Assembly (NCBI RefSeq): GCF_030282845.1
Contig: NZ_JASTWE010000019.1
Coordinates: 1 to 64,000 of the forward strand
Length of the DNA stretch: 64,000 nt
Source: Pseudodesulfovibrio pelocollis
GTDB taxonomy: Bacteria; Desulfobacterota; Desulfovibrionia; Desulfovibrionales; Desulfovibrionaceae
Reading direction: 5' to 3'
The notes under the pieces were generated by a model, which had not been told where the DNA came from, did no database searches, and saw only the letters and a program-made list of their open reading frames with translations. Made by a program: the position numbers and the translations under genes. Below, piece by piece: positions 24,781 through 59,616 of the stretch. Position 1 is the stretch's first letter, and the number at the start of each line of letters is the position of its first letter.

Positions 24781-24796
24781 GCACTATGTGTGCCAA
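24781..24796 (-). promoter_or_regulatory. Sigma-54 promoter of flagellin
   Basis: On the minus strand TTGGCACACATAGTGC has GG at -24 and GC at -12 with the required 12-base offset. The predicted transcript leader is about 35 nt. Confidence 0.75.
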
Positions 24797-25199
24797 ATAA
24801 AGTTTGTTAAGGAATATTAATATATTAACATTCTAAATAATGTCTAGACAGACATTTTTTGCCTAAGGGGAAATCGCCGGGAGCCCTTGGCTCGTCAAGG
24901 GATTGCCGCCATGGGGCAGCAAAAAAAGCTCTGTTGGCGCGGCCGTTGGGCGATGGTTCGGCCCGGCCAATGTCTGGGTGAGGGCGAGGCCAGGGACCTG
25001 GAGCGAGCCGCAGGGGGTGGCTGGCTGGTCTGGCGTGGTGATCGCGGCCCCGTGATCGCCCCGTGATCGGGTGGTGCAGGGGGTGGCGATTTGATGGCGG
25101 ACAGGGAGGCCAGGGCGTCGCGGGCTCGGAGTCCGGCTGAAGGGGGGGCCGGGCTGGGCCGCGCCTGCCGGTGGGGCTTGCGGGCGGCAGAACCGGATC

Positions 25200-29659: not shown

Positions 29660-29675
29660 TCAAAAGGTGTGCCAA
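29660..29675 (-). promoter_or_regulatory. Sigma-54-like promoter of fliK-flgD-flgE
   Basis: On the minus strand TTGGCACACCTTTTGA has a perfect -24 element; the -12 element reads GA instead of GC. It is 27 bp upstream of the fliK start, and the match is otherwise at the correct spacing. Confidence 0.55.
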
Positions 29676-29799
29676 AGGTGAAATGCAGTCATTTCAGGGC
29701 ATTGATCCGAGCCGACAGCGGCAGAAAGCGCCGATGAGCGCTTTTGGGCCGAGCCGAGTGGCCTTCCTTGCCGGGTTGGGGGGTGGGGCGGGGTCGGAT

Positions 29800-58391: not shown

Positions 58392-58862
58392 CTAGATGTA
58401 GTCGCCCCGGTTGAACTTGAACCGCTCGGCGGCGGCCAGGGTGTCCAGTTCCTCGACGATGGACTGAAGGCCCGGATGGCGGGAGGCCAGGTCCGGGCTG
58501 TCGGTCCTCACGGACTGCACTTCCGCCGCGATCTGGTCCAGGGTTCCGTAGGCGTCCTTGAGGCTGGCCCCGGGGCTCTGGAGGGTGGCGGCGTAGCTGT
58601 CCCACTTGTCGAGGATGGATTCTACCCGATCGGCCACGGCCTCGGCCGTGCCGTCCACCTGCTGCGAGGCGCTCAGGGCACCGGTGGCGAGCAGGGGGTT
58701 CACCAGCAGGGGCGGCGGCGGTGCCTGGGCGGCAACCGCAGTCGTTCCCTTGGCCACTTCCTGGCTGAGGAGATCGCCGAAGGCCTGACCCGGGGCAACA
58801 GGGGATTTCCGTTGCGTCTGTTCCGGCTGTATACCTTCGATCTGATCAGGACGGATCTTCAT
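58392..58862 (-). CDS. Hypothetical protein under a sigma-54 promoter
   Basis: A 156-residue soluble protein (ATG 58862, GGAG eight bases upstream) that I do not recognise. The N-terminus MKIRPDQIEGIQPEQTQRK and AFGDLLSQEVAKG are followed by a Pro/Ala-rich link (QAPPPPLLVNPLLATG) and helical parts containing GTAEAVADRVESILDKWDSY and GLQSIVEELDTLAAAERFKF. It has no signal peptide or membrane helix. The near-consensus sigma-54 promoter 37 bp upstream, of the same kind as those for flagellin and fliK here, makes a flagellar or motility role plausible (inference). Confidence 0.65.
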   Translation of the reverse strand: MKIRPDQIEGIQPEQTQRKSPVAPGQAFGDLLSQEVAKGTTAVAAQAPPPPLLVNPLLATGALSASQQVDGTAEAVADRVESILDKWDSYAATLQSPGASLKDAYGTLDQIAAEVQSVRTDSPDLASRHPGLQSIVEELDTLAAAERFKFNRGDYI

Positions 58863-59175
58863 GGTTCGCACTCCTATCCTGTGGTTTGCCTAGTGTGGTG
58901 CAAGGAGCTTGCCAAGGGGCGCGGCTGCGCATCAATTCGAAAATATTGCATTTTTCCTGGGAAATGGTAGGAAAATTATGCCGGGCCCGCCGGGGCGTGC
59001 CCAGGCCATGTCTGCATGGTAATACACAAGAAAAAGGTTGTCTATCCTCCCGGCCTCTGGCAAAAAATAGATGGGAGACTCCGAATCTTCAGCCCCGAGG
59101 CCCGGAGCGGCGCGACCTTTGGCGTGTCGCCCGGGCAAGGCGGGGATGTATAACCGCAAGCCAAGGAGAGCGACA
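58863..59175. other. Divergent intergenic region, sigma-54 gene / usp
   Basis: About 310 bp. The left part holds the sigma-54 promoter of the minus-strand gene. The rest is AT-richer; no clear promoter for the usp gene could be fixed. Confidence 0.5.
58899..58915 (-). promoter_or_regulatory. Sigma-54 promoter, near consensus
   Basis: On the minus strand TTGGCAAGCTCCTTGCA has GG and GC exactly 12 bases apart and a full TTGCA -12 element. The start codon of the unknown protein is 37 bp downstream of the -12 side. Confidence 0.8.
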
Positions 59176-59616
59176 ATGGCAATTGTGAAAAAAGTGTTGT
59201 GCGCGGTGGATTTCTCTGACTACAGCCCCAAGGTGGCCGAATACGCCAATATGATCGCCGGATGCGCCGGGGCGCAGGTGGTGGTCCTCTATGTGGCCCC
59301 TTCCTTGAGCCAGTACGTGGGCTTCCATGTGCCACCCAGCTCCATCGAGAGCTTCGTGGGCGAGATCGTCACCGGGGCCGAGGACACCATGAACGAGTTC
59401 GTCAAGGACAACTTCAAGGATCCCGCCACGGTGGGCAAGGTCGTTACCGGCTACCCGGCCGAGGAGATCCTGGCCATTGCCGAGGCCGAGAAGTGCGACA
59501 TGATCGTCATGGGCACCCACGGCCGCAAGGGCATTGATCGCATCCTCTTCGGTTCCGTGGCCGAGAAGGTGGTCAAGGCCTCCACGGTTCCGGTGCTCAC
59601 GGTCCGGCCCAGCTAG
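59176..59616 (+). CDS. Universal stress protein (UspA family)
   Basis: A 146-residue cytoplasmic protein. The N-terminus KKVLCAVDFSDYSPKVAEYA and the ATP-binding signature GTHGRKGIDRILFGS (G-2x-G-9x-G-S) are complete, so it should bind ATP like MJ0577-type Usp proteins. Its role is usually stress survival, but a specific partner is not apparent. AAGGAGAG precedes the ATG at 59176. Monocistronic, terminator at 59649. Confidence 0.93.
   Translation: MAIVKKVLCAVDFSDYSPKVAEYANMIAGCAGAQVVVLYVAPSLSQYVGFHVPPSSIESFVGEIVTGAEDTMNEFVKDNFKDPATVGKVVTGYPAEEILAIAEAEKCDMIVMGTHGRKGIDRILFGSVAEKVVKASTVPVLTVRPS

Follow-up and report, generated by a model that had tools for sequence, protein, structure and literature searches.

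The gene under study, called here the FliX-like gene, occupies positions 58392..58862 on the minus strand of the window (the whole 64-kb stretch of DNA that was analysed) and encodes a protein of 156 amino acids, with an ATG start at 58862 and a stop codon at 58392-58394. An alternative GTG start at 58871 would yield 159 residues, and AGGAG, read in the sequence at 58871..58875 on the same strand, resembles a ribosome-binding site. Upstream, also on the minus strand, lies a sigma-54 promoter, TTGGCAAGCTCCTTGCA (58899-58915), having its GG element at 58913-58912 and its GC element at 58901-58900. It is preceded by an FlbD-type box, GGCA-TAATT-TTCC (58970..58982, minus strand), which has one mismatch to GGCA-N5-TGCC and is located 56 nt upstream of the GG. 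The promoter coordinates and the 156-residue reading frame claimed by an earlier note on this DNA were borne out when the sequence was re-read and, regarding the other sigma-54-type promoters of the window, flagellin, fliK and a FlgE are located where that note placed them. A universal stress protein gene (59176..59616, plus strand), oriented divergently from the FliX-like gene, belongs to its context and is not part of the device proposed below. Of 128 loci, which include 52 outgroup loci, 54 have such a gene beside the FliX-like gene; hisC is found in 47/128 and cmk in 42/128.

Taken by itself, the 17-mer was rejected as a meaningful signal, since a match of its quality is no more than chance would produce in 64 kb. 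If up to two mismatches are allowed, the window contains 62 copies of the pattern TGGCACN5TTGC, against 82 expected; if at most one is allowed, it contains four, three of which precede flagellin, fliK and the FliX-like gene. The promoter is accepted as real because it is conserved across homologues, and not from the single match. The homologue set combined 30 members, drawn from the 53 relatives in which a match was found, with 68 loci from a genome-wide peptide scan, giving 98, from which L097 (truncated) and seven loci with a protein identical to an earlier one were dropped, leaving 81 Desulfovibrionales and nine outgroup homologues. A site was counted when it scored at least 12 bits within the 150 nt preceding the start, using a generic sigma-54 weight matrix. 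Conservation in orthologues had been proposed in the earlier note as a check, and the promoter is kept, as a site is present upstream of all 81 distinct Desulfovibrionales homologues, with the GG and GC invariant and a distance to the start of 35 nt as the mode (range 25-91). As controls, sites were seen at 6 of 408 neighbouring ORF starts, which are mechanical calls and in some cases not true gene starts, and in 5 of 1620 mononucleotide shuffles. Among the outgroup homologues of this first set, no sigma-54 site was found near the start (0/9). A looser scan of the outgroup loci L132-L171 gave sigma-54-like sites in 14/40; it has no control, so it is not used as evidence.

The FlbD-type box was also rejected as meaningful by itself, because its frequency in the window is that of chance (69 one-mismatch boxes compared to 67 expected), and consequently only its fixed position counts. 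In the stretch from 30 to 160 nt before the GG, 41/81 Desulfovibrionales homologues carry an exact GGCA-N5-TGCC and 62/81 a copy with at most one mismatch, compared to 10/4050 and 184/4050 in shuffles, and to 2/81 and 14/81 in in-gene stretches, respectively. For 44 of the 81 homologues (44 of the 62), the box with up to one mismatch ends 53-59 nt upstream of the GG. The FlbD motif of Caulobacter, as given in the accessible part of PMC3333781, consists of GGCA, five spacer bases and TGCC, which fits the box upstream of the FliX-like gene. The motif shown there for DVU1063, an FlbD homologue, has four spacer bases and differs from the five-base box found here. When both spacers were compared from -300 to +150 of the start, the four-base form was exact in 0/81 homologues and the five-base form in 41/81. 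One-mismatch boxes of this type are also present at the flagellin promoter (window 24781-24863), 56 nt upstream of the GG, and at the fliK promoter (window 29660-29732), 46 nt upstream of the GG.

Regarding the protein itself, the earlier note had stated that it matches no recognised family, which did not hold, as it lies near a known one, FliX. The top Pfam family of the window protein is FliX (PF10768), with 22 bits and E 2.5e-4 against a curated cut-off of 25 bits, followed by a second weak match, to DUF7260, with 19.6 bits; the NCBIfam search with the window protein gave no FliX match. Extending these searches to 50 diverse homologues, the Pfam FliX model was matched at E <= 0.1 by 13 of them and an NCBIfam FliX model by 12, and no other family was matched by as many. 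When 247 genomes of the order were searched in six frames with Pfam FliX, 50 of them gave matches at E <= 1, in most cases located elsewhere than the gene. The Pfam cut-off was exceeded in four of the 247 genomes, by orthologues of the gene (27.7-31 bits), and the six best matches of this search are all the FliX-like gene. In the window's own genome the gene was not reported by the six-frame search, the best match lying elsewhere with E 0.135, and an earlier six-frame search of six genomes found the gene in G003 (E 0.0036), a genome unlisted in the 247-genome search. As the first pass of the six-frame search is loose, such absences count little.

For a direct comparison of profiles, the FliX profile was composed of two alphaproteobacterial sequences only: an Erythrobacter plasmid protein annotated as FliX, whose gene is divergent from a flgI-like ORF, and a relative from Niveispirillum. 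These two true FliX proteins score 126 and 78 bits with the Pfam model. The 50-row homologue alignment compared to them by hhalign reached a score of 44.5 (probability 92.6, E 4.7e-7, 118 columns), the similarity covering most of the protein length. Controls gave at most 20.0 for 150 column shuffles, 13.4 for the reversed alignment and at most 21.2 for 40 other families formed from neighbouring ORFs of the same loci. Sub-profiles scored 41.0 when restricted to outgroups and 33.4 when restricted to Desulfovibrionales. In the reverse search, the homologue profile finds the Niveispirillum FliX with E 8e-4, in a small set, and scores the Erythrobacter FliX at 9.3 bits, compared to 6.1 for the best of 2000 shuffles.

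The position of the window protein below the Pfam cut-off, its lack of an NCBIfam FliX match, the six-frame search that did not report the gene in its own genome and the use of a two-sequence FliX profile could all be expected if the likeness were a generic helical resemblance and the gene encoded an unrelated protein of the flagellar regulon. This explanation is very unlikely, however, as the shuffle and other-family controls are far lower, the best six-frame matches fall on the FliX-like gene itself, and the MKI, GxxF and NPL motifs are colinear in the Niveispirillum FliX. As judged from its sequence, the gene appears to encode a divergent FliX, a distant relative of that of Caulobacter. It shares with the family (PF10768, NF009426, NF050808) an N-terminal MKI, a central NPL region, a helix with ILDxxD and, close to the C-terminus, a last helix with PxLxxxxxEI/EL, these motifs being colinear, as well as the presence in the same genomes of an FlbD-type activator with a degenerate receiver. 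Besides these similarities, there are differences: most members tested here fall below the curated cut-offs, and a [KR]xxRGDY-type C-terminal tail is present here and absent from the two FliX examined. Moreover, fliX of Caulobacter is described as early and CtrA-dependent in the available text of PMC3930126, whereas the gene studied here is preceded by an FlbD-type box and a sigma-54 promoter. Since four orthologues exceed the Pfam cut-off, some database records may already be named FliX.

The AlphaFold2 model presents helices at residues 71-95, 101-121 and 130-152, with pLDDT mostly above 90, and, combined with the hhalign columns, it delimits a predicted three-helix domain common with FliX (codons 71-152; 58407..58652, minus strand). 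The N-terminus is modelled with low confidence, except for a short helix at 28-37. Foldseek of this model against the PDB gave no match at E <= 0.001, a three-helix bundle being uninformative, and the top matches of a PDB sequence search are weak and correspond to helical proteins, with a best E of 0.011. A small and helical protein, expressed from the same promoter class as flagellin, could also act as a flagellar export chaperone of the FlgN/FliT kind, serving a sigma-54-dependent late substrate. Nevertheless, no flagellar chaperone family is found among the matches listed, FliX leads in two libraries and the Foldseek search against the PDB is empty at the threshold above, making this role highly improbable.

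The N-terminal region leads to another alternative, as FxxxL is a gate motif in early flagellar export substrates and, among the 50 homologues, F28 is invariant and L32 is near-invariant, within a presumably disordered N-terminus bearing the helix at 28-37. Thus, the protein could be exported, as an early flagellar substrate or an accessory of assembly, using this motif at the export gate and having a helical domain that works at the basal body or beyond the cytoplasm. The homology to FliX across most of the length and the co-occurrence with FlbD, which holds even within flagellin-bearing genomes as seen below, argue against export, and this possibility is considered unlikely.

Within the preferred assignment to FliX, two regions may be compared to functionally important parts of the Caulobacter protein. 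As described in the accessible sections of PMC3096577, the L85K substitution in Caulobacter FliX abolishes both FlbD binding and function. The position of L85 was mapped by numbering offset, anchored on D117-D118 and on a run of charged residues near R71, the Caulobacter numbering being about 4 ahead of the Niveispirillum FliX. By this mapping, L85 would be the second leucine of ILDRLD in FliX and would align to W87 of ILDKWDSY, placing the presumed position within LDKWDSYA (codons 84-91; 58590..58613, minus strand). The ILDKWDSY stretch is well conserved among homologues in the 50-row alignment, and both the central and C-terminal regions are aligned with FliX by hhalign. The second region is the C-terminal tail, FKFNRGDY (codons 148-155; 58398..58421, minus strand), which does not vary across the 50-row alignment; of the 128 loci that form the wider set, all have RG[DEN][YFL] and 93 have the exact KFNRGDY. 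The fliX1 allele of Caulobacter carries R16G together with a changed and extended C-terminus and bypasses the checkpoint (PMC3096577, same sections); consequently, the tail described here is a candidate for the sensor end.

If the protein acts as FliX does, its partner should be sought among the sigma-54 activators, 19 of which were found in the genome of the window (two weak matches left out). The best match to the Erythrobacter activator is G000:C45:14795-16201, with 35% over 447 residues, its lead being modest (243 bits compared to 225 for the next of the 19). The Erythrobacter query adjoins flhA and is located on the FliX-bearing plasmid; it is read here as FlbD from its place and its own divergent receiver. 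The receiver of G000:C45:14795-16201 lacks the acidic pair and the phospho-acceptor and stays below the Pfam receiver cut-off, resembling the degenerate receivers reported for FlbD and DVU1063. Unusual N-termini also occur in a few further activators of the window genome. FlbD of Caulobacter and DVU1063 are thereby compared to the proposed partner of the FliX-like protein, not to a relative of it.

The distribution of both genes was followed in 60 relatives, accepting one FlbD orthologue per genome at E <= 1e-100. FlbD is present in 55 of them and the FliX-like gene in 53: both occur together in 53, the gene without FlbD in none, FlbD without the gene in two and neither in five. The genomes having FlbD and flagellin without the gene are G053 (99% complete) and G029 (82% complete), and those lacking both the gene and FlbD are G019 (87% complete), G037, G040, G046 and G054. 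The co-occurrence gives a Fisher value of 3.8e-6, and of 3.5e-5 among flagellin-bearing genomes, in a test that ignores phylogeny and includes few independent losses. As four of the five genomes without both have a flagellin match, the presence of the gene seems tied to FlbD and not to flagella in general; the flagellin model used (PF00669) also takes flagellin-like hook proteins, so that its matches can overstate, and G046 has one weak flagellin match (E 2.9e-16). On a wider scale, a sample of 297 phylum genomes includes 88 with the gene, 186 with flagellin and 85 with both. A flagellin match is therefore present in 85/88 gene-bearing genomes compared to 101/209 of the others, so that flagellin occurs without the gene in 101 genomes of this sample. 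Taken together, the conserved sigma-54 promoter, the box of FlbD type and the co-occurrence with flagellin and FlbD strongly support membership of the flagellar regulon, for which the earlier note had proposed the protein as a candidate.

The window gene is the probable orthologue of DVU1032 of Desulfovibrio vulgaris Hildenborough, because of its single copy per genome in relatives, the like promoter and the gene order, in which DVU1032 presumably neighbours a universal stress protein gene. According to the accessible part of Kazakov 2015 (PMC4641369), DVU1063, an FlbD homologue, has DVU1032 among its targets, listed under Flagella, and DVU1032 belongs to a group of four genes for which 5'-RNA-seq agrees with the predicted sigma-54 promoters. 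DVU1032 thus shares with the window gene a sigma-54 promoter and the association with an FlbD homologue. That part of the paper gives nothing on the function of DVU1032 past the heading Flagella. If DVU1032 is indeed the orthologue, the protein is not a new member of the flagellar regulon, contrary to what had been proposed, since this link was already published (PMC4641369, same part). The literature search for DVU1032 returned only PMC4641369, and among the papers searched none was found calling DVU1032 FliX, combining FliX with Desulfovibrio, combining FliX with Deltaproteobacteria and flagellar, or containing DVU1029-DVU1031. The assignment to FliX would provide a testable function for a gene whose probable orthologue is a known member of the FlbD regulon in a model sulfate reducer.

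In Caulobacter, FliX binds FlbD, restraining it until the early basal body has been completed and stimulating it from then on, as stated in the available portions of PMC3096577 and PMC3930126; its regulatory mechanism is described as not understood in the available portion of PMC7064773. The FliX-like protein is likely to be an FlbD partner of this kind, coupling flagellar assembly to sigma-54 transcription and being itself controlled by FlbD and sigma-54. The proposal is based on the conservation of the promoter and the box, the homology to FliX, the presence of an FlbD-type protein and the co-occurrence with FlbD. The three-helix C-terminal domain would bind the FlbD-type enhancer-binding protein of the genome, and the FliX-like protein would then adjust FlbD activity to the assembly state of the basal body, both the sensing and the direction of the effect being presumed. 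As a result, sigma-54 genes, such as the hook and flagellin genes, would be turned on at the proper stage. For its part, FlbD would bind the GGCA-N5-TGCC box and activate the sigma-54 promoter of the FliX-like gene itself, thereby forming a feedback loop, and the RGDY tail may also take part in this mechanism.

This pattern suggests that the FliX-FlbD checkpoint is not confined to alphaproteobacteria, and a second, distant FliX branch with a near-invariant tail offers a comparative handle on the sensing end relative to the FlbD-binding end. A broader and more tentative proposal, for which the chances appear somewhat against, is that the checkpoint, which is described for alphaproteobacteria, is a widespread device of Desulfobacterota, in which the near-invariant [KR]xxRGDY tail would sense or touch the assembled basal body and the placement of FliX under FlbD and sigma-54 would create a self-resetting feedback. 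If this is true, the fliX1 allele of Caulobacter would be the alphaproteobacterial counterpart of losing the tail sensor.

Concerning the outgroup loci, an activator gene lies within four genes of the homologue in 6/52 loci (7/352 neighbour ORFs), which is not clearly enriched. This neighbourhood was dropped as evidence for an activator partner, as six of 52 loci are not clearly above chance. In one locus, the neighbour adjoining the outgroup homologue is L158:2379-3848, a protein that combines a response-regulator receiver with a phosphofructokinase domain. In several others, a protein of 107-111 amino acids (L090:2630-2962 and relatives, a cluster of 8) is encoded 38 nt before the homologue; no Pfam match was obtained in the two members scanned, and it may be another flagellar protein. 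A small protein also adjoins the homologue in L137:4013-4372 and four other loci (a cluster of 5), carrying in L137 the flagellar rod C-terminal domain Flg_bbr_C. Finally, two matches to the FliX-like family are present in each of the outgroup genomes G074, G148, G177, G205 and G231.
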